NCBI RefSeq assembly: GCF_010365105.1
Contig: NZ_JAAFGZ010000016.1
Location: forward strand, 1 to 64,000
Origin: Polaromonas sp.
GTDB lineage: Bacteria; Pseudomonadota; Gammaproteobacteria; Burkholderiales; Burkholderiaceae_C
DNA length: 64,000 nt
Reading direction: 5' to 3'
Shown: one piece after another, positions 18,812 through 60,177 of the stretch
Layout of the letters: the number at the start of each line of letters is the position of its first letter
Numbering within the stretch: the stretch's first letter is position 1
Made by a program: the position numbers and the translations under genes
The notes under the pieces: generated by a model
What the model was told of the DNA's origin: nothing
Database searches by the model: none
What the model saw: the letters and a program-made list of their open reading frames with translations, nothing else

Positions 18812-18828
18812 ACTATCAATAATGTAGC
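18812..18828. repeat. Degenerate GCTAT-N7-ATAGC dyad
   Basis: ACTAT - CAATAAT - GTAGC: one mismatch in each arm, correct 7-bp spacing, A/T-rich centre. Confidence 0.5.
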
Positions 18829-19023: not shown

Positions 19024-19113
19024 AAGAAGTCGAACAAGTTTTGTCCCGAGGCGCGTGGGCGCGCAGTGCGCATGGTTGCAGCGGCTGGAGAAACTCGAGC
19101 CCAAGATCCATGA
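19024..19113 (+). pseudogene. Remnant of an IS3-family transposase OrfA N-terminus
   Basis: Reading from 19024 gives KKSNKFCPEARGRAVRMV and then, after about ten more codons, a stop at 19111-19113. The FCPEARGRAVRMV stretch matches the typical start of IS3-family OrfA helix-turn-helix proteins (KFSPEVRERAVRMV type). Nothing of the later OrfA or OrfB is present and no inverted repeats were found, so this is a small relic. Confidence 0.5.
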
Positions 19114-19215
19114 ATTGCGACGGGCCATGAAATCTTCAAGCTGTCCTGACAGCTATGCGCATGCCATGACTGGCGACGCGGCACCCATGCTGCCCACAAA
19201 ATACCGGCTGTTGGC

Positions 19216-42064: not shown

Positions 42065-43495
<1,431 letters not shown>

Positions 43496-44554: not shown

Positions 44555-44594
44555 GTTGTCTCCAGGGTTGGTTTAGCGAACGGTGAGTGGGTGA

Positions 44595-45392: not shown

Positions 45393-45423
45393 GTTTACCT
45401 CTTGATGTGTGTTTGACCGGCGT

Positions 45424-46206
45424 TCAAAGCCCGCGCCGTGTTTCGATCGCCTGCTCCAGCCTGCGCAGCAGCACGTCGATGACGAGGCCGACGATACCGA
45501 TCGCGATCATTCCGCTCATCACAGTAGCGGTCGAAAGACTGGCCTGGCCCTTGACCAGCATGTAGCCGACGCCGCTGGACGCAACGATGAGTTCGGCGCC
45601 GACCAGCGACTGCCAGCCCAGTCCGGCCGAAACGCGCAGCCCGGAAACGATTGACGGCACGGCCGCTGGCAGCAGCACCTGCGTGATGCCGCGCCATGGC
45701 CCGGCGCCGAGCATGTTGGAGGCTTCGATGTACTTTTTGTCGACGTGCTTCGCGCCGCGATAGGTGTTGATCAGAACCGGCGGAAATGCGCCCATGAAAA
45801 TGATCAGCATCGGCCCGCCGATGCCCGTGCCAAACCAGAGCGCCGCGAACGGTACCCAGGCAATCGGCGCGACGAAGCGTACCGCTTCGAACACCGGCGT
45901 GACGATCCGGTCGACACTGCGGAACCAGGCCATCAGCAAGCCCAGCGGAATGCCGACGCACACCGCCAGACCATAGCCCAACGCAAAACGCTGCAGGCTG
46001 GACAGCAAATGCATTTGCAGCGTGTAGCCGGCGAACGGTTCATGCATCAGCTGCACCAGCCGCTCGAGCACCTGCAGCGGACCCGGCAGAAACATGCGCG
46101 GAACCAGGCCGGACTGCGCCGCCACGACCCAAAACGCGAGAAATCCCAGTGCTCCTGCGGCGCTCAGCGTCCAGAAGCGGGCCGGTGTCAGTTTCGGTTG
46201 CAGCAT
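45424..46206 (-). CDS. ABC transporter permease (TauC/SsuC type), second
   Basis: A 260-aa inner-membrane permease with about six helices and the EAA coupling loop (EASNMLGAGPWRGITQVLLPAAVPSIVSGLR). The ATG at 46206 is preferred: it has GGAGGG seven bases upstream and overlaps the stop of the preceding permease by one base (TGATG). A GTG five codons upstream would swallow that ribosome binding site. Together with the preceding permease it forms a probable heterodimer, whereas TauC and SsuC normally act as homodimers. Confidence 0.9.
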   Translation of the reverse strand: MLQPKLTPARFWTLSAAGALGFLAFWVVAAQSGLVPRMFLPGPLQVLERLVQLMHEPFAGYTLQMHLLSSLQRFALGYGLAVCVGIPLGLLMAWFRSVDRIVTPVFEAVRFVAPIAWVPFAALWFGTGIGGPMLIIFMGAFPPVLINTYRGAKHVDKKYIEASNMLGAGPWRGITQVLLPAAVPSIVSGLRVSAGLGWQSLVGAELIVASSGVGYMLVKGQASLSTATVMSGMIAIGIVGLVIDVLLRRLEQAIETRRGL

Positions 46207-47057
46207 CAACGTGCCCTCCACGGCATGACCCGCGCTTCAATCCACCCGAGGCCGAGCGTCATCACCCAGCCGAAGAGTGCGACGCTGATCATGCCGACCA
46301 GAATCATCGGCGGATAAATATCCTGTGAGGCCTGGTTCAGGATCTGCCCCAGTCCTGCAATCGCACCGATCAGCTCGGCCGCGACAAGGGTGGTCCATGA
46401 GGCTTGCAACGACAGCCTCAGGCCGGTGAAGATGCTCGGCAACGCACCCGGAATCAACACCTGCGTCCAGTAGCGCCAGCCGCGGATGTCGAGCATCGCG
46501 CTGGCCTCGAACAGCGGCTTGTCGATCTGCCGCACCCCGCTGAAACTGTTGATCACGGACGGCACGAAGGCTGCGGCGAAGATCACCATTATCTTGGCCG
46601 CATCGCCCAGTCCCAGCCAGACGATCGCCAGCGGAATCCAGGCCAGCGGCGGGATTGGCCGCAAGAACAGAAAGGCCGGGTTCACCAGCGCCTCGATTGT
46701 TCGGCTGGCGCCCATCGCCAGTCCCAGCGCAACCCCCAGCGTCGATGCGACAAGAAAGCCGATGGTCACGAGCGCCACGCTGCGCACCACGTGTTGATAC
46801 CACAGCGCACTTGCGTAGCCTTCCCACAGGATTTGCTGCCAGGCGGCCCAGGTCTCGGACGGCCCCGGGAACCGGATTGGTGAAATGAGACCGCTGCCTT
46901 CAGTCAGTGCCCACCACGCCAGCAGGGCAATTCCCAGCGCCGCCAGCGCGCGCCAGAGCGGGCGGCGCCATCCGGACATTCGGGAGGCGGTTGAAGTTCC
47001 CCTCGCGGTTGCGGCGGGCAGCGCAGTGTCGGTGGTAGTCACTTGAGCGGTCTCCAT
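46206..47057 (-). CDS. ABC transporter permease (TauC/SsuC type), first
   Basis: A permease of up to 283 aa with six predicted helices and the coupling loop EASAMLDIRGWRYWTQVLIPGALPSIFTGLR. It is the first gene of the putative sulfonate operon. The start is ambiguous: the ATG at 47057 lies only 4 bp from a LacI-type palindrome and has no ribosome binding site; a GTG at 47042 has GGAG eight bases upstream and may be the true start, losing only five residues. Confidence 0.88.
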   Translation of the reverse strand: METAQVTTTDTALPAATARGTSTASRMSGWRRPLWRALAALGIALLAWWALTEGSGLISPIRFPGPSETWAAWQQILWEGYASALWYQHVVRSVALVTIGFLVASTLGVALGLAMGASRTIEALVNPAFLFLRPIPPLAWIPLAIVWLGLGDAAKIMVIFAAAFVPSVINSFSGVRQIDKPLFEASAMLDIRGWRYWTQVLIPGALPSIFTGLRLSLQASWTTLVAAELIGAIAGLGQILNQASQDIYPPMILVGMISVALFGWVMTLGLGWIEARVMPWRAR

Positions 47058-47075: not shown

Positions 47076-47232
47076 TTCTTGACGGGTTATCGCGGTGCGT
47101 CAACCCATGAAGATATAAATCTTCGTGGTACAAACCCTCAGGGAAAGCAAACGCCTGACGCAGGATTTTCTGCAAGCGCGTACATTTGTCGTCATTGGCT
47201 TGTACTATCAACTGAATACTTTTGTGATCAAC

Positions 47233-48270
47233 ATGAATGTCCCTGACACCAAACATCCAACCGTCGCGGACGTGGCGCGGCGTGCCGGCGTCTCGACGGC
47301 CACGGTGTCGCGCGTGCTGAACCAGCCCGACGCAGTGCGTGAGAACCTGCGCAGAAAGGTCGGCGCTGCGGTGGCCGAGCTGGGTTATGTGCCACATGCC
47401 GGTGCTCGCGCGTTGATGCTGCGCCGCTCGGGCACGGTTGGTGCGGTGTTTCCGACCATTGACAACGCGATCTTCGCCACCGCCATCGAGGCCCTGCAGC
47501 GGCGCCTTGCGGCATCCGACATCCATCTGCTGCTCGCCACCAGCGGCTACGATCCCGAGGAAGAAATGCGGCAGGCGATCAATCTGGTGACACGCGGCGC
47601 CGACGGCCTGGCGCTGTGTGGCAACTGCCAGCATCCGGAGCTGCTGCGCTTTCTGCGCCAGCGGCGCGTTCCGTGCGTGCACGTGATGGTGCAGGACGAA
47701 GGCGACGAACTGGTCAGCGTCGGTTTTGACAACGCCGCAGCCACGCGTCAGGCAACGCAATACCTGCTCGATCTGGGGCACGTCAACATTGCGATGCTGG
47801 CGGGTGTCACGCGCGCGAATGATCGGGCCCGGCAGCGTGTGGCGGGCGTGCGTGAGGCGCTCTCGGCGGCAGGGCTGGCGCTGCCGCCCGAACGCCTGGT
47901 GGAACGCCGCTACACGATAGCCGATGCGCGTACGGGCTTGCGCGAGCTGATGGCGCACCGGCCCGCGCCGACCGCGGTGGTCTGCGGCAACGACGTGCTG
48001 GCGTTCGGCGCCATGCTGGAATCGGCGGTCATGGGCCTGCAGATTCCGCGCGACCTTTCGATCGTCGGCTTCGACGATCTCGAACTGGCGCGCCATTTGC
48101 AGCCCGCGTTGACCACTGTGCAGGTGCCGACCGAACACATGTGGTCGACTGCGGCGGACCGCCTGGTGTCGGCATTTCAGGGCGAGCCGGTGCAGCGCAG
48201 CACCAAAATCGACGTGGCGCTGGTGGTGCGTCAGTCCACCGGGCCGGCGCCAGCTGGCAAACCGGGCTGA
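47233..48270 (+). CDS. LacI-family transcriptional regulator
   Basis: A 345-aa repressor. The N-terminal DNA-binding domain (TVADVARRAGVSTATVSRVLNQPDAVRENLRRKVGAAVAELGYVPH) contains the helix-turn-helix and hinge; the rest is a periplasmic-binding-protein-like sensor with VVCGNDVLAFGAM and DLSIVGFDDLELARHLQPALTTVQVP near the end. The start at 47233 gives the usual short leader before TVADVA; the open frame further upstream is not supported. It is divergent from the ABC/HpsN-like operon and most likely represses it, with the substrate or a metabolite as inducer. Confidence 0.92.
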   Translation: MNVPDTKHPTVADVARRAGVSTATVSRVLNQPDAVRENLRRKVGAAVAELGYVPHAGARALMLRRSGTVGAVFPTIDNAIFATAIEALQRRLAASDIHLLLATSGYDPEEEMRQAINLVTRGADGLALCGNCQHPELLRFLRQRRVPCVHVMVQDEGDELVSVGFDNAAATRQATQYLLDLGHVNIAMLAGVTRANDRARQRVAGVREALSAAGLALPPERLVERRYTIADARTGLRELMAHRPAPTAVVCGNDVLAFGAMLESAVMGLQIPRDLSIVGFDDLELARHLQPALTTVQVPTEHMWSTAADRLVSAFQGEPVQRSTKIDVALVVRQSTGPAPAGKPG

Positions 48271-48326: not shown

Positions 48327-49076
48327 TCATGGCATGGTCAGGGCGCGCCACAGCAGACTGGTACTGCCGGCGATCAACAGCAGCCACACCGCCTGAATGG
48401 CGCGTTTTGCAGGCATGCGCGCATGCAGAAAGCTGCCTGCCAGATAGCCCAGAATCGCACACGGCAACAACGCGAACGCGAGCGGCAGCAGGCCGTTCTG
48501 GCGGTAAAACCCGCTGCCGGTGAAAAGCACCAGCCGGATCAGCGCCGTACCGAAAATCAGCACGCCAATGGTCGCGCGCATCACATTTTTGTCGGGCAGG
48601 CGCCGCGCCAGGTAGACCATGTAAACCGGTCCGCCGGTGCCATACAGCGCCGTGAACGCGCCGCCTATCATGCCGGCGGGCAGGGCCCACCTGGATGAAA
48701 TGGGTGCAATTTCTGCCTTGCGCAGCAGGCTCCAGCTGGCATAACTGAGCACAAAGATGCCCAGCACCATCAAAAGCCAGCGTTCGCTGGCCTGCACAAG
48801 CACGGTCACACCCACCACCATGCCGATCAGCAAGAAGGGGAACAATCGCAGCAATTCGGTCCGGTCCAGGTGTTTGCGATTCTTCAGGCCCAGCAACAAA
48901 CCCGCAAAAAGATCAAACACCAGCATCATCGGGACGGCAAAGCGCAACGGGAAGAAATGCGCCAGCAGTGGAATGGCAATGATCGCCGCGCCAAATCCGG
49001 TCAGGCCGTACACGGTGTACGCGACCGTGACGATCAGCGCCGCGCTCAGCAGCGTGATCCAGGGCAAGTCAATCAC
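48327..49076 (-). CDS. TauE/SafE-family membrane exporter
   Basis: A 249-aa protein with seven to eight hydrophobic helices and the TauE/SafE motif pattern (GFGAAIIAIPLL near residue 27, GGAFTALYGTGGPVYMVYL near residue 140). Family members export sulfite, sulfoacetate or other organosulfonate products. It converges on the LacI gene and follows the sulfonate operon region, which supports a role in removing sulfite or a sulfonate end product. Many TauE/SafE proteins have unknown substrates, so this is an inference from context. Confidence 0.87.
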   Translation of the reverse strand: MIDLPWITLLSAALIVTVAYTVYGLTGFGAAIIAIPLLAHFFPLRFAVPMMLVFDLFAGLLLGLKNRKHLDRTELLRLFPFLLIGMVVGVTVLVQASERWLLMVLGIFVLSYASWSLLRKAEIAPISSRWALPAGMIGGAFTALYGTGGPVYMVYLARRLPDKNVMRATIGVLIFGTALIRLVLFTGSGFYRQNGLLPLAFALLPCAILGYLAGSFLHARMPAKRAIQAVWLLLIAGSTSLLWRALTMP

Positions 49077-49220: not shown

Positions 49221-50849
49221 TCAATATTTGATCTGGGGCGCAGGCACCCCTTCGATCATCACGTTCAAACAGGCGGGAAGGCCGCTCGCCTGCGCACGCT
49301 GTGCAGCAGCTGCCATCTCGTGCGGCTCGGTCACCCGTTCTCCATGACCGCCAAACGCCTGCGTGACCGCGTCGTAGCGCATGGGACGAAGCTCGCAGCC
49401 CACCAGCCGGTCCGGACCATAGTCGCGCAGCTGGATCTGGTATTCGGCATTCCAGCGCGCATCGTTGCCAATCACCGAAACGAAGGGCAAGCCGTAGCGC
49501 ATGGCCGTGTCATATTCAGCGATGTGAAACCCGACCGTGCCGTCGCCCATCACCGCCACCACGGGCGCTTGCGGCTGGGCGCATCGCGCCGCCAGCGCAT
49601 AGGGAAGACCCGAGCCGATCGAGCCCGCCACACCGTTGTTGACACGGTGCGGCGCATTCAGGCAAGCCATCGCCCACTGCCCTATTTCACCGCCATCGCA
49701 CACCAGCACCGATTCGGGATGGCTGTCGAGCAGTGCCTGCAGCGGCCTGAGCATCTGTACCGGATGAAGCTTGCCAGGCAGTTCCGATTGCACGCTGTCC
49801 CATGCCGGCGGACGGTAGGCCACAGCGCTGCGCACATCAGACAGCCAAGCGGACGGCGCACTGCTTGAAGCCGCCTGCGTCAAAGCCGACAGGGACGAAA
49901 AAGCATCGGCCAGTGCTGTGACTTGAAGTCGATCACCGAGCGCGTTGCGCGTGCGTTCGATTTCGGCTGGCTCGGCATCTATTTGGTGCACTTCAGATTG
50001 TGCCGAGAGGGCCGGAGCTTTGCCAAATTTGAGTGTGAAGTCCACCCTTTTTCCGACCAGCAGCACGCAGTCGGCCTGCGCCAGCATCTGCGCAAAGGCA
50101 CCCAGACTGGCATCGGCGATGCCACGTGGACTCTCCATGCCGATCACCGGCACACCGCTGGCAGCTTCCAGTGCAGCCAGCATCGCGCGGCCCGGGCGGG
50201 TCATGCAGGCCGGGCCGGCAAGGATCATCGGACGCCTGGCCTGGGCCAGGCGCTGCATCAGGTCGCTGGCAGTAGCCAAATCCAATGCCATGGTTTCGGG
50301 CTGAAAGGCATCGGCCGTCAGCGATGCTGACTCAGCGATGTCATCGAGTGCGTCCGTGGGCAGGTTCAGGTTCACCGGACCGGGCCTGCCCGATCGCGCG
50401 ATGCGGATCGCCCTGGCAATGTCGCCGGCGATCTGGTCCGGCCCGGCGCATGTCCAGGCCGCCTTCGTCACCGGCCCCGCCATCTCGGCCTGGCGCATTT
50501 CCTGAAAGGCGCCCAGTCCAAGCTGGCTGTTCGGCGCATGGCCGGACAGCAGCACCACCGGGGATTCGGCCATCTGCGCGGTGTAAAGCGCGGAAACCGC
50601 ATTGCCATGGCCGGGGCCACCGGTGACGAGCGCAATACCCACCTCGCCGGTGATGCGCGCATAGGCATCGGCCATGTGCACGGCGCTGGCTTCGTGGCGC
50701 GTGTGGATGAGCTCAATTCCAGAATTGAACGCGGCGTCGTAAATCGGCATGATGTGGTTGCCCGAAAGCGTGAAGATCCGGCGCACGCCGGCTGTCTTGA
50801 GCGACTGGATCAAGGCATCACAGCCACGGTTGCGGGAAGAGATGTTCAT
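49221..50849 (-). CDS. Thiamine-diphosphate-dependent enzyme, acetolactate synthase-like
   Basis: A 542-aa enzyme with the three-domain fold of the acetolactate synthase/decarboxylase family. The N-terminal domain carries the activating Glu in THTRHEASAVHMADAYAR-like sequence near residue 53 and GPGHGNAVSALYTA; the C-terminal ThDP-binding motif is VAVMGDGTVGFHIAEYDTA...GND (GDG-N type). It cannot be assigned to a named enzyme; acetolactate synthase, oxalyl-CoA decarboxylase, benzaldehyde lyase and sulfoacetaldehyde acetyltransferase share this fold. It ends the nine-gene dicarboxylate-type operon, 11 bp after a Bug gene, so it probably acts on a 2-oxo acid or 2-hydroxyacyl compound made by the pathway. 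Confidence 0.82.
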   Translation of the reverse strand: MNISSRNRGCDALIQSLKTAGVRRIFTLSGNHIMPIYDAAFNSGIELIHTRHEASAVHMADAYARITGEVGIALVTGGPGHGNAVSALYTAQMAESPVVLLSGHAPNSQLGLGAFQEMRQAEMAGPVTKAAWTCAGPDQIAGDIARAIRIARSGRPGPVNLNLPTDALDDIAESASLTADAFQPETMALDLATASDLMQRLAQARRPMILAGPACMTRPGRAMLAALEAASGVPVIGMESPRGIADASLGAFAQMLAQADCVLLVGKRVDFTLKFGKAPALSAQSEVHQIDAEPAEIERTRNALGDRLQVTALADAFSSLSALTQAASSSAPSAWLSDVRSAVAYRPPAWDSVQSELPGKLHPVQMLRPLQALLDSHPESVLVCDGGEIGQWAMACLNAPHRVNNGVAGSIGSGLPYALAARCAQPQAPVVAVMGDGTVGFHIAEYDTAMRYGLPFVSVIGNDARWNAEYQIQLRDYGPDRLVGCELRPMRYDAVTQAFGGHGERVTEPHEMAAAAQRAQASGLPACLNVMIEGVPAPQIKY

Positions 50850-50860
50850 GTATCGGCCTT

Positions 50861-51847
50861 TTATTTCAATTCAATCTGGAGTTCGCGGCCCAGGCGTTCA
50901 TACACCTGGTACTGGTCTGATGCGAATTTTCTGGTGTCCGCGGGTTTCATCACCCGTGGAATGCTGCCGGCTTTTTCAGTTGCGGCAGTCCACTGGGCAT
51001 CCTGCGCGGCAGCAGCCAGTGTGTTCACCCAGCGGTTTGTGATTTCCTTGTCCAGGCCGGGCGGACCATACAGCGCGCTCCAGCCAATGACCGTTTCAAG
51101 TTCCGGATAACCTGCCTCGCGCGCTGTTTGCACGTCTGGCAGATCCTTGAGTCGTTCTGGCGTCGTGGTCATCAGCGCATGCAGCTTGCCGCCCTTGATA
51201 TTGCCGATCATCGACGTGAGGTTTCCACAACTGAAATCCACATCGCCTGAAAGCACCGCCATGGCCGCTTCACCACCGCCCTTGTAGGCCACCGGCACAG
51301 CGGCGTTCTTGCCGAGCTTGAGCACATCGAACAACAGTTGGGGACCGAAATTCAGGATCGTCGCTGGGCCAGTGGTGCTGTAGTTGAGCTTGCCAGGCTT
51401 GGCGCGCAGCGCATTGACCAGGTCCGCCATGGTCTTGTAGCCCGATTCACTGTGCACCGCGCAGACCACAGGATTCAATTCCAGCAGACCGAGGAAAGTG
51501 AAACTGTCCCACTTGTAGTCCAGCCCCTTTTGCAGTGCCGGCAGGACGACCTGCGAACCCACACGGGCGAGCAGCAGTGTGTAGCCGTCGGGTTTGGCGC
51601 CCTGCACCGCAAGGGAACCAATGGCGCCGCCCGCACCTGCCCGGTTCACGGCGATCAGGCTTTGGCCCATGGTGCGTTGCACCACAACGGACAGATTGCG
51701 CGCAGCGACATCGGCATCGCCCCCGGCACTGAAGGGCACGACCAGCGTGACCGGACGATCGGGGTAGAGGTGGGCTTGGGCACTTGCCTGAGGTGCGATG
51801 GCAGACAGGCCGGCCCATAGGGCCAGGGTATACGGGATGGAATGCAC
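50861..51847 (-). CDS. Bug-family (TctC) periplasmic binding protein
   Basis: A 328-aa solute-binding protein with a signal peptide (cleavage near PQASAQA). Family features are YPDRPVTLVVPFSAGGDADVAARNL, GAGGAIGSLAVQGAKPDGYTLL and LNYSTTGPATILNFG in the ligand region. Bug proteins bind carboxylates such as citrate, glutamate or aromatic acids for tripartite tricarboxylate transporters, but most, as here, have no TctA/TctB genes beside them. It lies between the flavoprotein and ThDP enzyme genes. Confidence 0.87.
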   Translation of the reverse strand: MHSIPYTLALWAGLSAIAPQASAQAHLYPDRPVTLVVPFSAGGDADVAARNLSVVVQRTMGQSLIAVNRAGAGGAIGSLAVQGAKPDGYTLLLARVGSQVVLPALQKGLDYKWDSFTFLGLLELNPVVCAVHSESGYKTMADLVNALRAKPGKLNYSTTGPATILNFGPQLLFDVLKLGKNAAVPVAYKGGGEAAMAVLSGDVDFSCGNLTSMIGNIKGGKLHALMTTTPERLKDLPDVQTAREAGYPELETVIGWSALYGPPGLDKEITNRWVNTLAAAAQDAQWTAATEKAGSIPRVMKPADTRKFASDQYQVYERLGRELQIELK

Positions 51848-51940
51848 GACGTCTCCTGTTGTTCAGATTAGAAATTCGGGCGCCAACCGGCTGGCCTGCC
51901 ATGGAAGGTAAAAGCGCGCAGTGCGCCTTGTTCAAGAATT

Positions 51941-53677
51941 TCAAGAAACGATTGCATCCTCCTCTTGCAGGATCGTCTGGCCAGGCACGACGCGGGTGAA
52001 GTGAACGGGCTCTCTGCGCATCGACAGCGTCTGGCCGGCCTGCGTCACGACGATGTAGCTGGAGCCTTCCAGGTCGCCGGCGTGCGGATGGTCTTCGCGG
52101 AAATGCGCGCCGCGCGAGTCTTCGCGCGCCAGCGCGGAGGTGGTGATAACGCGGCCCACGGCAATCAGGCTCTTCAGGTTGAGCCAGTCGTGCCAGCTCA
52201 GGTTGAAGGCGCGGTCGCCATCGGCCACGCCAATACCTGATAGCCGTTCGTCAAGTGCGTTCAAGGTAACGAGTGCGCGCTGCAGGCCTTCTGCAGTGCG
52301 CAAGATGCCAACGTCCTGCCACATGCAATCGAACAGCGCCTCTCGAATCGCCTCAATGTCCCCGGGCGCCTGCGCAAACGGCGTCAGGTGCGCTGCCATG
52401 CTTTGCCCGATCGCCGCTTCGTCCGGTTCGCGCAGGCGGCCCTGGCTTTTCACCCAGACCGCCATGCTGTCGCCGGCGATGCCGCCAAACACCGTGGAAT
52501 TGGCCACGCCGTTGCCGCCCAGCCGGTTGGCGCCGTGCACACCGCCCGTGTCTTCGCCAGCGGCAAACAAACCGGTCAGCGCCGTGGTGCAGTCGGCTTT
52601 GAACACCACGCCGCCCATCATGTAGTGGGCGGTGGGCACCACTTCCACCAGGCCGCCTGCAAGATCGAAACCGCAATCACCGCAACGCTCGACCATGCCC
52701 TTGAACTGCTTGCGCACCTTCTCGGGCCCAAGATGCGACATCTGGAGATACACGCCGCCATTCGGTGACGTGCGGCCTTCGCGCATCTCGGAAAAAATGG
52801 AGCGTGACACGATGTCGCGCGTCGCGCGCTCCAGCCTCGGGTCGTAGCGGTCCATGAAACGCTGGCCGTCGCCATTGAGCAGGTAGCCGCCTGCCCCGCG
52901 CAAGCCCTCTTCCAGCACCGTGCCGGTCATGCGCGTGCCGGTGCCGGCGAGCAGGCCGGTGGGGTGGAATTGCACCATTTCCATGTCGCGTACCGGCAGA
53001 CCCGCCCGCAGCGCCATCGCCAGGCCGTCACAGGACTTGTCGCCGGAAGGCGTGTGGTACTTGTACATGGTCGGTCCGCCGCCGGTGGCGAGCAGCACGG
53101 CCTTGGCCTGCACGAAAACAAAGCCGCCGTCCCGCATGTCGATCATCAGTACGCCCGCCAAGGCGCTGCCGTCGGGCGTCTTGATCAGCTCGATGGCGCG
53201 GTGCTCTTCAAGCCGCCCGATGCCGCGTGACCAGACCTGTTCGGACAGGCGGTTGATGATCTCGATGCCCGTCAGGTCACCCTTGTGCACGGTTCGGTCG
53301 AAGGTCTGGCCGGCAAAGGCTTTCTGGTGCACAGTGCCATCGGGGTTGCGGTCGAAAAAGCAGCCCAGTTCGTTTTCAAGCTCGTGCACCCGCTCGACCG
53401 CCTTGGTCACCAGCGTCCAGGCCAGGTCCTGGTCGGACAGCCATTTGCTGCCCTCGATCGTGTCCATGAAATGCCGCTCGACCGAGTCGCCTGGGGCCAG
53501 CGCGACGTTGTAGCCGCCCTGCACCATCCGGGTACAGCCGCATTTGCCGAGCAGACCCTTGACGGCGACGGTGATCGACAATTCGGGCGCCGTCTGGTGC
53601 GCATGCAGGGCTGCAAACAGGCCAGCGCCGCCGGAGCCCAAAATCAGGATGTCGGTCTGCACGCGTTTGATATTCAT
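51941..53677 (-). CDS. Succinate dehydrogenase/fumarate reductase-like flavoprotein
   Basis: A 578-aa FAD protein of the SdhA/FrdA family. The FAD site ILGSGGAGLFAALHA is at residue 12. Catalytic and substrate residues of FrdA are kept: the His of VQFHPTGL, Arg of TRDIVSRS, His of PTAHYMMGG and Arg of HGANRLGGNGV. The FrdA Thr-Glu pair is changed to Glu-Glu (VLEEGLRG). The His that binds FAD covalently in SdhA/FrdA (in SHTVAAQGG) is Cys48 here (CTRMVQGG), so FAD is probably held non-covalently, as in L-aspartate oxidase. Its start overlaps the stop of the hydratase beta gene by four bases. The substrate is probably a fumarate/succinate analogue. Confidence 0.88.
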   Translation of the reverse strand: MNIKRVQTDILILGSGGAGLFAALHAHQTAPELSITVAVKGLLGKCGCTRMVQGGYNVALAPGDSVERHFMDTIEGSKWLSDQDLAWTLVTKAVERVHELENELGCFFDRNPDGTVHQKAFAGQTFDRTVHKGDLTGIEIINRLSEQVWSRGIGRLEEHRAIELIKTPDGSALAGVLMIDMRDGGFVFVQAKAVLLATGGGPTMYKYHTPSGDKSCDGLAMALRAGLPVRDMEMVQFHPTGLLAGTGTRMTGTVLEEGLRGAGGYLLNGDGQRFMDRYDPRLERATRDIVSRSIFSEMREGRTSPNGGVYLQMSHLGPEKVRKQFKGMVERCGDCGFDLAGGLVEVVPTAHYMMGGVVFKADCTTALTGLFAAGEDTGGVHGANRLGGNGVANSTVFGGIAGDSMAVWVKSQGRLREPDEAAIGQSMAAHLTPFAQAPGDIEAIREALFDCMWQDVGILRTAEGLQRALVTLNALDERLSGIGVADGDRAFNLSWHDWLNLKSLIAVGRVITTSALAREDSRGAHFREDHPHAGDLEGSSYIVVTQAGQTLSMRREPVHFTRVVPGQTILQEEDAIVS

Positions 53678-54285
53678 GTTTTCACTCCAAGACTGGCCAG
53701 CGCTGTGGCCCTGTTTCCCGCCGTACTTTGCTTGAGCACGTCATACAGGCTGCCGCCATGGCTGTCCATCGCCACCAGCAGCGGGCCGAAATTGCGTATC
53801 CTGAATTTCCAGAGCGACTCGGGGTTCAGGTCGTCCATGTCGACATCTTCAATCTGCTCGATCCAGGTCGTTTCCAGCGCAGCGGTGCCGCCGACGATGG
53901 CCAGGTAAACGCCGCCCAGTTCCCTGAATGCGGACAGCGAGCCGTCACGCAGGCCGCCCTTGCCGATGACCATGCGCACGCCGTAGTCGGTCATGAGCGG
54001 CCGGGTAAATCGTTCCATCCGGTCCGAAGTCGTCGTACCGATGCAGATCGGCCGGTAGCCGGCCGGGTACTCGGCGGATTTTTCAACCTTTTGCACATTC
54101 GGCGCGGTATGGATAACGGCATGGCCGTTCATGTCGAACCTGGCTTGGCGGCCGTGGTCGAACATGTGAATCTGCGTTGCATCGCGGATGCCGAACAGCG
54201 TCGTCTGCAAGGTGACCGTGTCGTTGATGCGCAGCTGACGGATTTGCGCCTCAGTGACCGGCGTGGAGAGTTCGTGATGCGCCAT
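53674..54285 (-). CDS. Class I fumarase-type hydratase, beta subunit
   Basis: A 203-aa protein matching the C-terminal (beta) part of iron-sulfur fumarases, encoded separately as in archaea and in L(+)-tartrate dehydratase TtdB. Typical segments are HTAPNVQKV, ICIGTTTSDRMERFTRPLM, MVIGKGGL and VYLAIVGGTAAL. With the alpha subunit encoded just upstream (20-bp gap) it should form an oxygen-sensitive [4Fe-4S] hydratase acting on fumarate, mesaconate or tartrate-like substrates. Its stop overlaps the start of the flavoprotein gene. Confidence 0.9.
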   Translation of the reverse strand: MAHHELSTPVTEAQIRQLRINDTVTLQTTLFGIRDATQIHMFDHGRQARFDMNGHAVIHTAPNVQKVEKSAEYPAGYRPICIGTTTSDRMERFTRPLMTDYGVRMVIGKGGLRDGSLSAFRELGGVYLAIVGGTAALETTWIEQIEDVDMDDLNPESLWKFRIRNFGPLLVAMDSHGGSLYDVLKQSTAGNRATALASLGVKT

Positions 54286-54305
54286 GCTGAATTCCTAAAA
54301 AGTCC

Positions 54306-55181
54306 TTAATAGCCGTAGGTCACGCCTGCAGGCGTGAACGTTGCGCGGGCGCGCCGCGCCGAATGGCACTGCATGTTGACGGCGATGGGGTTCATGGTGA
54401 TGTGTGTCGAGGCCAGCTCGATCTGCACCGCGAACGCCGTCGAGTCGCCACCCAGGCCCTGCGGTCCCACGCCCAGCTGGTTGACTGCGGCAGACAGCGC
54501 CTCTTCAAGCCTGGCGCCTTCCGGATCGCTGCAGCGGCTGCCCAGTTCGCGCGTGGCCGCGCGCTTGGCCAGCGCCACGCTCAGGTTGGACGTGCCGCCA
54601 AGGCCCACGCCGACAATGGTCGGCGGGCAGGTCTTGCCGCCGGCCGCCAGCACGCAGTCGATCACAAAGGTCTTGATCGCGTCGATGCCTTCGGCCGGAA
54701 TGGCCATCTTCAGGAAGGAATTGTTTTCCGAGCCGCTGCCCTTGGGAATCATTTCGATGTCCAGCAGGTCGGGCGTCGGGCTGAAATCAATGTGGATGAC
54801 GGGCACCTCGATGCCGCAGGAGGTGTGGTTGTTCTTGCGCGTCAGCGGATGCACCACCGAGGAGCGCAGCGGATGCTCGCGGGTGGCGCGCTCGCAGCCC
54901 CGGCGTATCGCCTGCTTGAGCGCGTGGCCGTCCACCTGCACGTTCGAGCCGATCAGCAGGTTGTAGATGGGAATGCCGGTGTCCTGGCACAGCAGGTTGT
55001 CGGTGGCTTCCGCCACCTGGATATTCGTCACCATGGTCGCCAGCACGCTTTGGGCCGTGGCAGCAGTTTCCGTCCGGGTCAGCCGGTCCAGCCCGGCCTT
55101 GACATCGGGCGGTAGCATCTTGAGCGCGCGGATGTACAGCGTCATAGCGGCGTCTTCCACCGCTTGCAAATCAATCTTCAT
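54306..55181 (-). CDS. Class I fumarase-type hydratase, alpha subunit
   Basis: A 291-aa protein of the alpha (N-terminal) part of iron-sulfur fumarases/TtdA. Three Cys suitable for a [4Fe-4S] cluster are placed as in the family: Cys65 in LLCQDTGIP, Cys in GGKTCPPTIVGVGLGGT and Cys in NMQCHSARRA. Also conserved are RSSVVHPLTRKNNH and EMIPKGSGSENNSF. Fumarase, mesaconase and L(+)-tartrate dehydratase share this architecture and cannot be separated by eye. It lies in the operon between a Bug gene and the beta subunit. Confidence 0.9.
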   Translation of the reverse strand: MKIDLQAVEDAAMTLYIRALKMLPPDVKAGLDRLTRTETAATAQSVLATMVTNIQVAEATDNLLCQDTGIPIYNLLIGSNVQVDGHALKQAIRRGCERATREHPLRSSVVHPLTRKNNHTSCGIEVPVIHIDFSPTPDLLDIEMIPKGSGSENNSFLKMAIPAEGIDAIKTFVIDCVLAAGGKTCPPTIVGVGLGGTSNLSVALAKRAATRELGSRCSDPEGARLEEALSAAVNQLGVGPQGLGGDSTAFAVQIELASTHITMNPIAVNMQCHSARRARATFTPAGVTYGY

Positions 55182-55197
55182 CGGTTTTCCCCTCGCG

Positions 55198-56190
55198 TCA
55201 GTTGGTGGTGATGTTGCGGTTTTTCACGAGGGTGGCCCACTGTCTGGACTCGGCATCCATGGCCTTGGCAAATTCGGCCGGGGTGTTGCCCACCGGGGTC
55301 ATCCCCTGCACGAACAGGCGCGCCTTGGTGTCAGACTCGGCCAGCACCTTGGCGGTGTCGATCTGTATTTTGGAAAGAATGCCCTGGGGCGTGCCGGCGG
55401 GAGCCAGAAAACCAAACCAGCCGGTGTTTTCGAAGCCCGGCAGGCCGCTTTCGGCGACGGTAGGAACGTCAGGCAGCTGCGCTGAGCGCTGCTTGCCGGT
55501 CACGGCAAGCGCGCGCAGCCGTCCCGGGCCCAGCAAGGCAGAAGCCGCTGCAAAATTGCCCACCATCATCTGGATCTGGCCCGCTATCAGGTCGTTGTAG
55601 GCGACCGATTCGCCCCGGTAAGGCACATGCCTGATTTCGATGCGGGCGGCATCGGCAAAGTTTTCACCGGCCAGGTGCACCTGGCTGCCCACGCCGGCAG
55701 AGCCGAAGTTGAGCGCGCCTGGTGTTTCCTTGGCGAGCGCGATCAATTCCTTCACGCTCTTGACCGGCGCACGGTCAGGCACCACGAGCAACATCGGCCC
55801 GCTTGCCACATTCGTGATCGGCGCCAGGTCCTTCCTGGTGTCAAAAGGCATGTTCTTGTAGATGTGCGGATTGATGGTGATGCTGCCCGAGGCCATCAGC
55901 AGGGTGTAGCCGTCGGCCGGCGATTTGGCCACCATGTCTGCGCCCAGGTTGCCGCCAGCCCCGGCGCGGTTTTCGACAATCACCGGCTGGCCCCAGAGCA
56001 CCGCAAGCTTCTGGCCGATCATGCGTGCCACCACATCGGTTGAGCCGCCCGGCGAAAAGGGAACGACCAGGCGCACCGGCTTGGCGGGCCAGCGTTCCTG
56101 CGCCGTGGCGGGCATGACGCCCCATGCGGCAACCGTGACGACGGTTGCCGCAAAAACGCGGCCCAGCGCTGAACGTCGGTTAAAGGTCAT
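55198..56190 (-). CDS. Bug-family (TctC) periplasmic binding protein, second
   Basis: A 330-aa solute-binding protein with signal peptide (cleavage near ATAQE). Family features: WPAKPVRLVVPFSPGGSTDVVARMI, NRAGAGGNLGADMVAKSPADGYTLLMAS, and LNFGSAGVGSQVHLAGENF. The mature start PVRLVVPFSPGG is more typical than that of the other Bug protein in the operon, and the two are not recent duplicates. A dicarboxylate ligand is likely given the neighbouring hydratase and SDH-like genes. Confidence 0.9.
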   Translation of the reverse strand: MTFNRRSALGRVFAATVVTVAAWGVMPATAQERWPAKPVRLVVPFSPGGSTDVVARMIGQKLAVLWGQPVIVENRAGAGGNLGADMVAKSPADGYTLLMASGSITINPHIYKNMPFDTRKDLAPITNVASGPMLLVVPDRAPVKSVKELIALAKETPGALNFGSAGVGSQVHLAGENFADAARIEIRHVPYRGESVAYNDLIAGQIQMMVGNFAAASALLGPGRLRALAVTGKQRSAQLPDVPTVAESGLPGFENTGWFGFLAPAGTPQGILSKIQIDTAKVLAESDTKARLFVQGMTPVGNTPAEFAKAMDAESRQWATLVKNRNITTN

Positions 56191-56262
56191 GTCGTTGTCT
56201 CCTTGTTATGGAAAAGCAGGCCCTGCACACCGCCTGGGAAAGTCAGGAAAAACCCGTGGAAG

Positions 56263-56619
56263 TCAGGAAAAAAGTGACAGGGCAAAGGCCATTCCGGCGG
56301 CGGCGGCGAAACCCGCAGCACCCGCAATCCAGTCCTTGCGCAAACCCGATGCGCTGCCGAATTCGATCAGCAGCAGGCGCACGCCGCCCATCATGTGCAG
56401 CGCCAGCAGGACCACCAGGCCCCATTCGGCAAACTTGAAAAGCCCCTGGTCGGCGAAGCGCAGAAAACCGTCCAACGCGGCGGCCCCCTGCAAGGCCTGG
56501 CCCAGCGCCCAGAAATGCAGCGGCAAAAAAGCCGCCAAGCCCAGCCCCGACAGGCGATGCATCAGGAAAGCCCAGTAGGCTGGATGCGCGCGGGCGCGCT
56601 GGTCGTTGCGGCGCTTCAT
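56263..56619 (-). CDS. SdhC-like cytochrome b membrane anchor
   Basis: A 118-aa protein with three membrane helices. The SdhC signature HRLSGLGLAAFLPLHFW near residue 21 supplies the quinone-site Ser/Arg, and LALHMMGGVRLLLIEFG near residue 80 has the His expected to bind haem b. The ATG at 56619 overlaps the stop of the preceding anchor gene by four bases (ATGA), which fixes the start; the longer frame upstream lies within that gene. With the next gene and the iron-sulfur subunit it should anchor the flavoprotein complex in the inner membrane. Confidence 0.85.
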   Translation of the reverse strand: MKRRNDQRARAHPAYWAFLMHRLSGLGLAAFLPLHFWALGQALQGAAALDGFLRFADQGLFKFAEWGLVVLLALHMMGGVRLLLIEFGSASGLRKDWIAGAAGFAAAAGMAFALSLFS

Positions 56620-56972
56620 GCTGCCACCACCGCAACCACGGCGCGCAGGCCCATCACCAGCAGCAGTAATCCGAATGCCCGCGAGAGCCAGCGCGCAGCA
56701 CCTTCCCCCAAACCCCACCATTCACGGGCAATGTTGGCCACGCCCACGGGCACATGCACCGCGCAGGCCACGACAAACACCGCATAAAACACGGCAAAAC
56801 CCCAGTTGCCCTGCGTGCGGCCCAGGATTTCACCGGCGCTCAGCCCGCCGCGCACCGCATAAATCATGACCGCCAGATGCACCACCACGCACAGCGCCAG
56901 CACCATGGCGCTGATCCGCTGCCAGTACCAGCGCTTGGCCTGCGCCACCCCGGATGCCTGGGAGGCACTCAC
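56616..56972 (-). CDS. Second SDH-type membrane anchor
   Basis: A 118-aa protein with three hydrophobic helices and SDH/FRD cytochrome b-type features: WQRISAMVLALCVVVHLAVMIYAVRGG near residue 17 and VACAVHVPVGVANIAREWWG near residue 70 (candidate haem His). It starts with GTG overlapping the sdhB-like stop (GTGA). It resembles SdhC-type rather than typical SdhD sequences, so the complex may have two SdhC-like anchors. Confidence 0.8.
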   Translation of the reverse strand: MSASQASGVAQAKRWYWQRISAMVLALCVVVHLAVMIYAVRGGLSAGEILGRTQGNWGFAVFYAVFVVACAVHVPVGVANIAREWWGLGEGAARWLSRAFGLLLLVMGLRAVVAVVAA

Positions 56973-57685
56973 AGCTCGCCCCGCACGGCCGCCCTGGCCA
57001 CCTTGCGCTTGAGTCCGGCAATCGACATCGTAGGGGCGAGCTGCTTGGGACAGCGCTCGGTACAGGAACCCTGCGTGTGGCAGGAATGGCAGCCCGCGTC
57101 ACCGGCCACCGCTCGCAGCCGCTCGACCTGCTGCACATCCCGCACATCGTTGGCCAGCGTCCAGGCGCGGTTGAGTGCCGCCGGACCCAGGTAGTCAGGC
57201 TGCCAGCTGACCACGTCGCAGGAGGCGTAACAAATGCCGCAGCCGATGCATTCAATGCCGGCGTCGGCCGCCTTGCGTTCCGGGGAAGCCGGCTCGACCT
57301 TGGCGAAAGGCGCATCGCGCGTCAGTTCGCCCTTGAACTGCCCCTTGGCACGCGCCCATTTGTCAAAGAACTCGCTCATGTCGGTGGCCAGGTCCTTGAT
57401 CACCGGCAGGTTCGACAGCGGCGCGATTTCCAGTTCACCGTCTGGCGCCACCTTGGCAATGTGCGTGCGGCAGGTCCAGCGCGCCTTGCCATTGACGGTC
57501 ATGGCGCAGGAACCGCACATGCCCACGCGGCAGGCAAACCGGTAGCTCAGCGAAGGCTCCAGATGGCGCTGGATGTAGGTCACGACATCCAGGACGGTCT
57601 GGCTTTCGTTGCGCGGCACGTCGTAGGCCGTGAACCCGCCGACCTCTTTGCCACGCCATACCTTCACTTTGAGATTTTTATGCAT
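56969..57685 (-). CDS. SdhB-like iron-sulfur subunit
   Basis: A 238-aa protein that carries electrons from the flavoprotein to quinone. The [2Fe-2S] ligands are CRVGMCGSC plus Cys in WTCRTH; the [4Fe-4S] motif is CIGCGICYASC; the remaining [3Fe-4S]-type ligands are in CHTQGSCTERCP, preceded by an extra Cys (CHSC). Length and order fit SdhB/FrdB. It is the first gene of the nine-gene operon, an unusual place, as sdhB is normally last in sdhCDAB. A 21-bp dyad lies just upstream, between it and the divergent LysR gene. Confidence 0.9.
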   Translation of the reverse strand: MHKNLKVKVWRGKEVGGFTAYDVPRNESQTVLDVVTYIQRHLEPSLSYRFACRVGMCGSCAMTVNGKARWTCRTHIAKVAPDGELEIAPLSNLPVIKDLATDMSEFFDKWARAKGQFKGELTRDAPFAKVEPASPERKAADAGIECIGCGICYASCDVVSWQPDYLGPAALNRAWTLANDVRDVQQVERLRAVAGDAGCHSCHTQGSCTERCPKQLAPTMSIAGLKRKVARAAVRGEL

Positions 57686-57760: not shown

Positions 57761-57809
57761 CAAGATGGTCTTGGCCACCACCAGCCCATCCCAAAAACTG
57801 GAGACAAAA

Positions 57810-58739
57810 ATGCGTTCCGTCCGCACTTTCAAAACTTTTCTGGCAGTGGTTCAGCACGGCAGCTTCGCAGCAGCCGGCCACGCGGTCGGCCTGACGCCGG
57901 CAGCCATTGGCCTGCAGATACGCAGCCTGGAGGAGGAGTTGAACCAGCAGTTGTTTGACCGCGCCAAGCGCTCGGTGGTGCTGAACACGGCCGGGCGCAA
58001 GCTGGTGCCGGCCATTCAGGACCTGGTGCTGCGCCATGAGGCACTGGCAGCCGGTACAGACAACGACGGACTGTCGGGCACGGTAGTCATGGGCGCACTG
58101 ATCTCGGCGTTGATGGGATCGTTTGCGGATGCGCTGTGGACCATCAAAAAGCAGTATCCGCGTCTGGAGGTACGTCTGCTTGCCGGCCAGTCCGACGACT
58201 TCATGCGCAAGGTGGAACACGGCCAGCTGGATGGCGCGGTGGTGATCAGGTCACCACATGCGCTGCCCTCGAACCTGATCTGGACACCGCTGTACCGCGA
58301 ACCCATGGTGTTGATTGCGCCACGACATCCGCATTTCAACCTGTCTGCTGATCCGATCGAAATGCTCCGCAACAGCCCCTTCATACGCTTCGACAGAACC
58401 ACCTGGACAGGTTATCTGGTGAGCGAGGTCTTGCGGCAGTGCCATGTCAACCCGACTGATGCCATGGAACTCAATTCGTTTGAAGCCATCATGGAAATTG
58501 TGCGCCAGGGCTTCGGCATTGCCATCGTGCCGAAGCTGGCGAACGTGGACTGGTCAAGTGACCGGGGTTTGATGATCATTCCCCTGCCTTGCGTGGTGCT
58601 GGAGCGCGACGTGGGCCTGCTTGAGCGCACCAGCCACCTGCGAACGGGGTTTACTGACGCGATCAAACAGTACTTCATCGATCACAAGAAGCAACCCGGC
58701 CAGGAGGCACTTGACCAAAGAGGCAACGAGCAATCCTGA
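57810..58739 (+). CDS. LysR-type regulator of the dicarboxylate-type operon
   Basis: A 309-aa LysR-family protein: helix-turn-helix in residues 1-60 (FAAAGHAVGLTPAAIGLQIRSLEEELNQQLFDR), then an effector domain (MGALISALMGSFADAL onward). I use the ATG at 57810, which has GGAGA at a good distance; the frame is open from 57765 without support. Divergent from the SDH-like/fumarase operon with a strong dyad between, so it probably activates that operon in response to its substrate. Confidence 0.9.
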   Translation: MRSVRTFKTFLAVVQHGSFAAAGHAVGLTPAAIGLQIRSLEEELNQQLFDRAKRSVVLNTAGRKLVPAIQDLVLRHEALAAGTDNDGLSGTVVMGALISALMGSFADALWTIKKQYPRLEVRLLAGQSDDFMRKVEHGQLDGAVVIRSPHALPSNLIWTPLYREPMVLIAPRHPHFNLSADPIEMLRNSPFIRFDRTTWTGYLVSEVLRQCHVNPTDAMELNSFEAIMEIVRQGFGIAIVPKLANVDWSSDRGLMIIPLPCVVLERDVGLLERTSHLRTGFTDAIKQYFIDHKKQPGQEALDQRGNEQS

Positions 58740-58836: not shown

Positions 58837-60177
58837 TCAGGCGTGTTTGCGAATGGCGTCGGCCACCACATTGACGATGCGGTCGATGTGTTCCTTCTCC
58901 ACGATGAAGGGCGGGCAGACGACGACGTTCTCGCCGGCAGGCCGCACCATGACGCCGTTGTGAAAGCATTCCATGAAGATGTCGTAGGCACGCTTGCCCG
59001 GCGCACCCGCCACCGACGCCAGCTCGACCGCACCGGCCAACCCCAGCGTGCGGATGCCGATAACGTTGGGCAAGCCCTTGAGGCCGCTGTGCATCGCATC
59101 GCCCAGCACCTTGCCCATCTGGCCGGCGCGCTCGAACAGGTTTTCCTGCTGGAACAACTCCAGCGTGGCAATCGCCGCCGCGCAGGACACCGGATGGCCT
59201 GAATAGGTGTAGCCGTGGAAGAACTCCACTGCGTATTCCGGGCTGTTGGAGCTGCCCTTCATCATGGCGTCGTAAATGCGGTCGGTGCAGATCACGCCGC
59301 CCAGCGGAATCACGCCGTTGGTCACGCCCTTGGCAAAGTTCAGCATGTCGGGCACGACGCCGTAGTAGTCGGCGCCAAAGTTGACGCCCAGGCGGCCAAA
59401 GCCGGTGATCACCTCGTCAAAAATCAGCAGGATGCCGTGCTTGTCGCAAATCTCGCGCAGCCGCTTCAGGTAGCCCTTGGGCGGCAGATACCAGCCGGCG
59501 CTGCCGGAAATCGGCTCGACGATCACGGCGGCCACGTTGCTCGGGTCATGCAACGGCAGGATGCGGTTTTCCAGTTCCAGCAGCAGGTCTTCGGTCCATT
59601 CGGGCTCCACGCCATTGATGTAGGCATGGCTGACCGGGTCATGGATGAAGCGCATATGGTCCACGCGTGGCAGCAGCGCCGCACCATACACCTTGCGGTT
59701 GGCCGGAATGCCGCCCACGCTCATGCCGCCGAACCCCACGCCGTGGTAGCCCTTTTCCCGGCCGATGAACACATTGCGGTGGCCTTCACCGCGCGCCCGG
59801 TGGTAGGCCAGCGCCACTTTCAGCGAGGTGTCGGCGGCTTCCGAGCCGGAGTTGCAAAACAGCACCTTGTTCAGGTCGCCCGGCGCCATGTCGGCAATCA
59901 TTTCGGCGGCCCTGAAAGCCTGGTCGTTGCTTGCCTGGAAGGCGGTAGCGTAGTCCAGCGTGTCGAGCTGCTTCTTGATGGCTTCGTTGATGGGCTTGCG
60001 GTTGTGGCCGGCGGTGACGCACCACAGGCTGGAAATGCCGTCGATCACCTTCCGGCCGTCATGCGTCGTGAAATGCATGCCGTCGGCGGCTACGAAGATG
60101 CGCGGGTCCTTCATGAAGCTGCGGTTGGGCGTGAACGGCAGCCACTGGTGGTCCATGTTGAAGTTCTGATAAGCCAT
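58837..60177 (-). CDS. Class III omega-amino acid:pyruvate aminotransferase
   Basis: A 446-aa PLP-dependent enzyme that moves an amino group from beta-alanine or another omega-amine to pyruvate. Visible features: LPFTPNRSFMKDPRIF at the start, CNSGSEAADTSLKVA for phosphate binding, VIVEPISGSAGWYLPP, FDEVITGFGRLG with the Asp that holds the pyridine nitrogen, and the Schiff-base Lys in NFAKGVTNG. Length and motifs fit beta-alanine:pyruvate transaminases well; taurine or putrescine-type amines are alternative substrates. Divergent from purU; an inverted repeat at 60213-60235 lies between. Confidence 0.92.
   Translation of the reverse strand: MAYQNFNMDHQWLPFTPNRSFMKDPRIFVAADGMHFTTHDGRKVIDGISSLWCVTAGHNRKPINEAIKKQLDTLDYATAFQASNDQAFRAAEMIADMAPGDLNKVLFCNSGSEAADTSLKVALAYHRARGEGHRNVFIGREKGYHGVGFGGMSVGGIPANRKVYGAALLPRVDHMRFIHDPVSHAYINGVEPEWTEDLLLELENRILPLHDPSNVAAVIVEPISGSAGWYLPPKGYLKRLREICDKHGILLIFDEVITGFGRLGVNFGADYYGVVPDMLNFAKGVTNGVIPLGGVICTDRIYDAMMKGSSNSPEYAVEFFHGYTYSGHPVSCAAAIATLELFQQENLFERAGQMGKVLGDAMHSGLKGLPNVIGIRTLGLAGAVELASVAGAPGKRAYDIFMECFHNGVMVRPAGENVVVCPPFIVEKEHIDRIVNVVADAIRKHA

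Follow-up and report, generated by a model that had tools for sequence, protein, structure and literature searches.

The window analysed here is a stretch of 64,000 nucleotides from Polaromonas sp. (contig NZ_JAAFGZ010000016.1, positions 1 to 64,000). It contains, at 49221-57685, a nine-gene operon for a succinate dehydrogenase (SDH)-like complex, a two-subunit hydratase, two Bug-type periplasmic binding proteins and a thiamine diphosphate (ThDP) enzyme (Table 1). We have little doubt that this operon is a conserved organosulfonate-catabolic module, and its substrate is probably 3-sulfopropionate, in which a sulfonate takes the place of one carboxylate of succinate. The genes, their families, their conserved linkage, their co-occurrence with other genes and the active-site changes were established directly; the substrate and every reaction we infer.

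The initial annotation of this stretch had described nine genes in the order of Table 1, on one strand, with 4-base overlaps at three junctions and facing a LysR gene, and a check of coordinates and order against the open reading frames (ORFs) bore this out. The SdhD-like and SdhB-like genes overlap by 4 bases. The ORF of the SdhC-like gene was listed as 56263-56721; setting its start at 56619 gives a further 4-base overlap and the total of three. The remaining gaps inside the block measure 11-93 bases, and the TauE/SafE gene starts 144 bases past the ThDP gene. A promoter scan gave five promoter-like sites where 1.8 would be expected; three of the five, including two that overlap, are on the LysR strand around the gap between the iron-sulfur and LysR genes. 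A terminator scan stayed at background level, and neither result was used further.

Table 1. Genes of the operon and of its surroundings in the window
Feature	Position	Strand	Evidence
SdhB-like iron-sulfur subunit	56969-57685	-	Pfam Fer2_3, Fer4; TIGR00384 190 bits (cut-off 88); conserved core
SdhD-like membrane anchor	56616-56972	-	GTG start; TIGR02968/PRK13554 weak, under cut-off; conserved position
SdhC-like cytochrome b anchor	56263-56619	-	TIGR02970 60 bits (cut-off 52)
Bug1, periplasmic TctC-family binding protein	55198-56190	-	PF03401 255 bits
Hydratase alpha, class I fumarase/tartrate dehydratase family; proposed sulfoacrylate hydratase	54306-55181	-	TIGR00722, PRK06246, three Cys
Hydratase beta	53674-54285	-	PF05683 99.5 bits; TIGR00723 138.5 bits; GTTTSDRM motif
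SdhA-like flavoprotein (FlaA); proposed 3-sulfopropionate dehydrogenase	51941-53677	-	PF00890/PF02910; own clade; active-site residues
Bug2, second TctC-family binding protein	50861-51847	-	PF03401 139 bits
ThDP enzyme, acetolactate synthase/2-hydroxyacyl-CoA lyase group; proposed sulfopyruvate decarboxylase	49221-50849	-	PF02776/PF02775/PF00205
Divergent LysR regulator	57765-58739	+	PF00126/PF03466
AptA-type omega-aminotransferase	58837-60177	-	620 bits (cut-off 500)
TauE/SafE permease, proposed sulfite exporter	48327-49076	-	PF01925 105 bits (cut-off 33)
LacI-family regulator	47125-48270	+	40% identity to LacI gene adjoining hpsN, C. pinatubonensis
ABC importer, taurine/nitrate/sulfonate type	43496-47057	-	best matches TauC, SaoA/NtrCD/TauB, SsuA_fam, all under cut-off
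ABC permease	46206-47057	-	
ABC permease, second	45424-46221	-	by similarity alone
ABC ATPase	44595-45392	-	
SsuA-like binding protein	43496-44554	-	
HpsN-like	42065-43456	-	77% identity to C. pinatubonensis; motif GRYAH present
HpsO-like	about 41298-42053	-	69% identity to C. pinatubonensis
HpsP-like	40274-41275	-	59% identity to C. pinatubonensis

Flavoprotein, hydratase and ThDP enzyme

The host genome (4.5 Mb in 68 contigs) encodes two further proteins of the SdhA superfamily, on contigs C68 and C17. In a phylogenetic tree all 27 chosen sequences of FlaA, the SdhA-like flavoprotein of the operon, formed one clade with a support of 0.999, apart from SDH, fumarate reductase (FRD) and NadB. 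The SdhA encoded on C68 groups with SDH, and the C17 protein belongs to neither the SDH/FRD nor the FlaA clade. Thus a role of the operon as housekeeping SDH was ruled out, in agreement with the initial annotation.

The FlaA alignment comprised 103 rows, namely the window and 102 of the 103 loci (L107 was dropped for its truncated sequence), and the 102 loci rows represent 101 distinct sequences over the last 500 residues. The catalytic and dicarboxylate-binding residues H232, R287, H355, R390 and E245 of FrdA are kept in 103/103 rows. The position of FrdA T244 is Glu in every row and Thr or Ser in 25/25 other homologues. At the position of the histidine that binds FAD covalently (FrdA H44), all 103 rows have Cys; the 25 other homologues have His in 23 cases and Ser in two, both Ser being one gene seen twice. 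The earlier view, in which an SDH-like oxidation and a fumarase-like hydration together act on an analogue of succinate/fumarate, is supported by the kept dicarboxylate-binding residues.

The hydratase combines conserved and altered sites as well. Its alpha subunit scores 275 bits against TIGR00722 (cut-off 101), and its beta subunit lies slightly below the TIGR00723 cut-off of 145. The alpha residues C65, C185 and C272, presumably the Cys ligands, and D67, R106 and H260, which we take to be active-site residues, occur in at least 97% of 68 rows of the window type and in 16/16 rows of a second type; the three Cys and other alpha residues are common to TtdA/FumA. In the beta subunit, the GPTT motif of TtdB/FumA is replaced by GTTT in at least 97% of 76 window-type rows and by TATA in 11/11 rows of the second type. 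Length filters had removed 8/75 and 1/17 alpha rows and 2/77 and 3/14 beta rows of the window and second type, respectively. The partners of the single FlaA clade vary: they are class I hydratases of two divergent types and, on two plasmids of haloarchaea, a protein resembling argininosuccinate lyase/XcbC.

The ThDP enzyme reached no cut-off among 25 of 51 NCBIfam families listed, its best matches being acetolactate synthase and 2-hydroxyacyl-CoA lyase. No sulfopyruvate decarboxylase (ComDE) model was among those 25 of 51. Assignment as Xsc was rejected, as the protein scores 198 bits against a TIGR03457 cut-off of 676 and the true Xsc of the host scores 1032. Orthologues of the ThDP enzyme, wherever found in genomes with FlaA, lie within a few kilobases of FlaA in all five cases, four of which also have Xsc. 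Five FlaA genomes with Xsc and without SuyB are also without a ThDP orthologue. Judged by its context, the enzyme may be a sulfopyruvate decarboxylase, and this is our weakest assignment.

Conservation of the operon and its organosulfonate neighbours

The operon was compared in the best 80 of at least 589 confirmed FlaA loci, mostly titled Burkholderiales or Betaproteobacteria. Among the matches listed, the closest named relative is Polaromonas sp. CG9_12, whose FlaA is 97% identical. In 60/80 loci, more than by chance, the six core genes (SdhB-, SdhD- and SdhC-like, both hydratase subunits, FlaA) share one strand, and contig ends cut some of the other 20. Hydratase alpha was found in 72/80 loci, beta in 73/80 and the three other SDH-like subunits in 62/80. 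A Bug gene occurs anywhere in 46/80 loci (upstream of FlaA on the same strand in 30/80), a ThDP gene in 23/80 and a LysR match in 29/80. Conservation, proposed earlier as a check for all nine genes, was found for the core, across Burkholderiales; the Bug and ThDP genes are optional. More distant FlaA relatives occur in haloarchaea (46-48% identity), in Rhodococcus jostii RHA1 (52%) and in Alphaproteobacteria, and Paracoccus ferrooxidans and P. versutus possess the operon with TauE close by. Cupriavidus necator N-1 likewise has FlaA. Some loci carry additional genes: a sulfatase-family gene lies between SdhC and Bug1 in L071, L075, L079, L094, L096, L101 and L103. A pair labelled by eye as a TAXI-TRAP-type transporter lies between the hydratase beta gene and FlaA in L083, L091, L092, L099 and L104, which hints at alternative importers.

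Clustering of the neighbouring ORFs without use of labels gave as top partners an L-sulfolactate-dehydrogenase-like protein (36 loci), a SuyB-like (31) and a SuyA-like protein (21). GntR regulators, an ABC importer with an ATPase closest to TauB and a SlcC-like dehydrogenase were further frequent clusters, all of these family matches being under curated cut-offs. We then counted neighbours with uniform queries at an identity of at least 40%, with no such floor for TauE- and YeiH-type exporters, in all 80 loci and in the 39 that have full 8-kb flanks. SuyB was found in 35/80 and 25/39 loci, SuyA in 24/80 and 17/39, ComC in 39/80 and 23/39, SlcC in 22/80 and 13/39, and any of the four in 49/80 and 29/39. 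Exporters were found in 32/80 and 20/39, and a sulfolactate gene or an exporter in 57/80 and 31/39. Single loci illustrate the linkage. L060 has, on one strand, SuyB, the iron-sulfur, SdhD and SdhC genes, a TauE-like gene, an ABC importer, both hydratase genes, FlaA, SlcC and ComC. Plasmid pNYY1 of Methylobacterium radiotolerans (L153) has the SDH-like genes, hydratase alpha and beta, FlaA and ThDP, then, with a few other genes intervening, TauE (on the opposite strand), SuyA, SuyB, SlcC, ComC and GntR. Furthermore, in M. nodulans and Pseudomonas MPC6 the operon is flanked by sulfite dehydrogenases of the SorA and SorT types that score above cut-off.

Plasmids were covered through 13 loci, drawn from 18 FlaA-bearing plasmid records. 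A sulfolactate gene, an exporter or a sulfite dehydrogenase was also present in 12/13 of these loci; in L154 the sole such gene is of the YeiH type and about 7 kb off. In three of the 13, intact genes of the succinate- or methylmalonate-semialdehyde dehydrogenase type (SSADH/MMSDH) lie near FlaA: an MMSDH-type gene directly 3' of the hydratase in L130, another in L159, and an SSADH-type gene together with a YihU-type gene in L155. Such aldehyde dehydrogenases could possibly feed 3-sulfopropionate into the pathway. In L158 (R. jostii RHA1, 16610-19665) the SSADH-like gene near FlaA is apparently split by a transposase-like insertion. XcbC makes sulfoacrylate in bacterial coenzyme M synthesis. 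In two haloarchaeal plasmids, FlaA and the iron-sulfur gene stand beside an argininosuccinate-lyase-family protein (L129 8296-9798, L131 8218-9720), a UxaA pair and TauE, and no class I hydratase was found in the stretch fetched from either plasmid. The L129 protein scores above the argH cut-off and also reaches 257 bits against XcbC, under the XcbC cut-off. The haloarchaeal protein may be a non-homologous sulfoacrylate hydratase.

Whole-genome co-occurrence gave a similar result. Within a family sample of 150 genomes, FlaA orthologues (at least 73% identity) occur in eight genomes and SuyB in 23, and 8/8 FlaA genomes carry SuyB (hypergeometric P 9e-8). The two genes share a contig, within about 25 kb, in 6/8 and lie apart in the host (G000) and in G017. 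A phylum sample of 398 genomes contained FlaA in 11, SuyB in 15 and Xsc above the cut-off in 27. SuyB or Xsc was present in 37/398 genomes, which include 11/11 of those with FlaA (P 1e-12), and leaving out the genome of the window gave 10/10 (P 1e-11). Since FlaA occurs in just 11 of these 37 genomes, it is no general companion of sulfite release.

The host itself encodes the genes that the proposed pathway would need downstream. A cluster on contig C27 has the row SuyR-SuyA-SuyB-Bug-SlcC-ComC-YeiH, so that SuyAB and ComC/SlcC occur together. Its SuyB label is anchored by 84% identity to SuyB of the C. pinatubonensis hps-suyAB cluster, a cluster described in PMC11382572. Contig C50 carries Xsc, a phosphotransacetylase (Pta) and a YeiH-type gene (PF03601), which is called sulfate exporter in annotated relatives. 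A second HpsN-like gene (L133 16096-17382, 61% identity to HpsN of C. pinatubonensis) is located near this Xsc cluster. In the window, the NCBIfam label for HpsN is histidinol dehydrogenase, the parent family of HpsN. Since hpsNOP, TauE and the operon are neighbours, the region 40.3-58.7 kb reads, at the level of sequence, as one C3-sulfonate island with putative genes for the utilisation of 2,3-dihydroxypropane-1-sulfonate (DHPS), followed by TauE and then the operon. The AptA-type gene beside the operon is possibly a homotaurine or beta-alanine transaminase. As homotaurine transaminase of the operon it was rejected, because it occurs in only 1/103 loci, the near-identical Polaromonas L034, and it is kept as a lead.

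Proposed pathway and alternative explanations

We suggest that the operon serves the uptake and the first aerobic catabolic steps of 3-sulfopropionate, in a scheme that would copy the conversion of succinate via fumarate to malate with one carboxylate swapped for a sulfonate. The SdhA/B/C/D-like complex would oxidise 3-sulfopropionate to sulfoacrylate and pass electrons to quinone, and the two-subunit class I hydratase would add water to yield (R)-sulfolactate. By our own stereochemical argument, based on the Cahn-Ingold-Prelog rules, (R)-sulfolactate would be the spatial analogue of (S)-malate, and SuyAB is reported to cleave (R)-sulfolactate (PMC12421959). The SuyAB encoded on C27 would then form pyruvate and sulfite, with TauE exporting the sulfite. 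Alternatively, ComC/SlcC might oxidise sulfolactate to sulfopyruvate, which the ThDP enzyme would decarboxylate, followed by cleavage through the Xsc of C50. This scheme is least secure in the ThDP step and in the identity of the sulfonate.

Several observations weigh against 3-sulfopropionate and the proposed route. The FrdA residues that bind both carboxylates are unchanged in all 103 FlaA rows, and the exchange of T244 for Glu adds a negative charge at one substrate end, so that on its own it is no pointer to a sulfonate. With 296 against a cut-off of 276, the alpha subunit clears PRK06246, a curated model for fumarate hydratase. A complex II that loses the covalent-FAD His has a lower flavin potential and no longer oxidises succinate; the oxidative direction thus needs explaining for FlaA, which is without this His. 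The SuyAB of the host sits on a different contig from the operon. In the phylum sample SuyB occurs in just 5/11 FlaA genomes, the others having Xsc, which occurs in 9/11. Five of these 11 genomes come from one family, and as the genomes are related and not independent, the P values given above are too small. ThDP orthologues (at least 46% identity) occur in 5/18 FlaA genomes, one of which (G521) is without Xsc. In eight of the 39 fully flanked loci (L045, L047, L059, L064, L084, L109, L110, L112) the search for sulfolactate and exporter genes found none, the L112 sulfolactate match falling under the 40% floor. The stretch of L126, a plasmid of Sulfitobacter S190, is likewise without any searched sulfonate gene. 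Among the seven aldehyde dehydrogenase genes in the vicinity, four are incomplete (fragments in L127, L128 and L152, two pieces in L158). SSADH was seen in 1/80 loci, at 30% identity, and YihU in 2/80, which makes this clue thin. The haloarchaeal UxaA pair is merely 35-36% identical to the host SuyB and could therefore be something else. On the supporting side, nine proteins encoded in a cluster with a TauE homologue, annotated as fumarate/tartrate metabolism, were more abundant during growth on sulfofucose, which the authors put down to a possible link with the Krebs cycle (PMC12421959). This cluster 3 of P. wurundjeri, likened to ours by annotation and not by sequence, may well be the same operon type, given that P. 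ferrooxidans and P. versutus carry the operon near TauE. The inducer in sulfofucose-grown cells would then be sulfolactate or sulfite, not 3-sulfopropionate.

The question of direction bears on two further readings. If the operon ran in reverse, sulfolactate would lose water and then be reduced, and the formation of 3-sulfopropionate would serve as an electron sink. An absent covalent-FAD His, as in FlaA, favours fumarate-reductase-like chemistry. However, the operon is found together with desulfonating enzymes, sulfite dehydrogenases and sulfite exporters, and the intact aldehyde dehydrogenases in the vicinity, few as they are, point to 3-sulfopropionate as an input, so that we give reverse use very little credence. 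It is possible, if doubtful, that FlaA represents a complex II paralogue acting as 3-sulfopropionate:quinone oxidoreductase in a 'sulfo-Krebs' arm of Proteobacteria, Actinobacteria and haloarchaea, with the Cys carrying FAD as 8-alpha-S-cysteinyl flavin. Such a bond would restore the high potential that oxidation needs. The same reading would have a hydratase recruited at least three times, as two class I types and one argininosuccinate-lyase/XcbC-like type.

Among other substrates, sulfosuccinate might be oxidised to sulfofumarate and hydrated to 2-hydroxy-3-sulfosuccinate, from which a SuyAB-like enzyme would remove sulfite. Every dicarboxylate-binding residue is kept and the sulfonate context would be the same, but the neighbouring genes act on C3 sulfolactate and DHPS, and the intact SSADH/MMSDH genes at 3/13 plasmid loci suit 3-sulfopropanal. 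In addition, sulfosuccinate is mostly man-made, yet the operon is found in bacteria and haloarchaea; we consider this substrate unlikely. Another reading sees sulfite-tolerant spare SDH and fumarase isozymes that keep the Krebs cycle going during sulfite release. It would account for the co-occurrence with SuyAB/Xsc and exporters, for the kept dicarboxylate residues and for an alpha subunit above the fumarate hydratase cut-off. We regard it as quite unlikely, since the operon occurs in just 11/37 SuyB-or-Xsc genomes of the phylum sample and 8/23 SuyB genomes of the family sample, shows invariant changes at T244 and the GPTT motif and includes uptake proteins. The initial annotation had favoured a carbon-only C4/C5 dicarboxylate such as mesaconate, itaconate, methylsuccinate or tartrate, in keeping with the enzyme families and the Bug proteins. 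The L126 operon, which adjoins aconitase-X, DUF126 and FAD oxidoreductase genes (4198-7385), would fit as well. This idea found no support and now appears highly improbable: sulfolactate genes adjoin in 29/39 fully flanked loci, or 31/39 with exporters, and the window also holds TauE, the sulfonate-type ABC importer and hpsNOP, with sulfite dehydrogenases and exporters elsewhere. Among the 19 largest neighbour clusters (partly scanned, the rest judged by eye) no gene supported mesaconate, itaconate or tartrate, and neither CoA transferase, citramalate lyase nor tartrate genes were seen.

Significance and comparison with known systems

Enterococcus gilvus, and presumably other Firmicutes, produce 3-sulfopropionate from sulfoquinovose, a plant sulfosugar, with DHPS as an intermediate (PMC11489063). 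The compound is also formed from homotaurine (PMC5320631). According to a 2024 paper, no bacterial degradation of 3-sulfopropionate had been reported before, one Konstanz thesis excepted (PMC11489063), and a 2026 review calls the route of its degradation in Bilophila unclear (PMC12890257). We found no paper that names an SDH-like or fumarase-like gene for 3-sulfopropionate or sulfoacrylate catabolism, in a search that left subscription papers and theses mostly uncovered. Thus, as far as our searches reach, the enzyme families are known and the gene combination with its predicted substrate is not in print as genes. If the proposal is true, central-carbon enzymes were copied onto a sulfonate, and the operon would provide a genetic marker and candidate enzymes for the gap in the sulfur cycle at 3-sulfopropionate degradation. 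It may also explain the sulfonate-induced cluster labelled as fumarate/tartrate metabolism (PMC12421959). Annotated plasmids label the operon genes as SDH, fumarate hydratase and FAD-binding protein, and such annotations would be corrected.

Compared with complex II (SDH/FRD), the operon shares four subunits including an iron-sulfur subunit and two anchors, and the residues H232, R287, H355, R390 and E245. It differs in its separate FlaA clade, in the Cys at the covalent-FAD position, in T244 being Glu, in a loop insertion and in the hydratase encoded in the same operon. FlaA also stays under the SDH/FRD cut-offs (TIGR01812 452 against 567 bits; TfrA PRK06263 510 against 718). The hydratase resembles class I fumarase and L(+)-tartrate dehydratase TtdAB in its alpha and beta domains, its cysteines, its catalytic-type residues and an alpha subunit above PRK06246. 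In contrast to TtdAB, its GPTT motif is changed to GTTT or TATA, it adjoins an SdhA-like gene and its beta subunit falls under TIGR00723. With sulfolactate degradation through SlcC/ComC-SuyAB and DHPS degradation through HpsNOP, both encoded in the host genome, the proposed pathway would have the downstream enzymes and exporters in common. Unlike these routes, the operon would supply sulfolactate from 3-sulfopropionate and not from DHPS, cysteate or sulfosugars. Closest to our scheme is the homotaurine route of Roseovarius nubinhibens from the thesis of J. Mayer, which, as cited in PMC11489063, our only source for it, likewise leads from 3-sulfopropionate via sulfoacrylate to sulfolactate.

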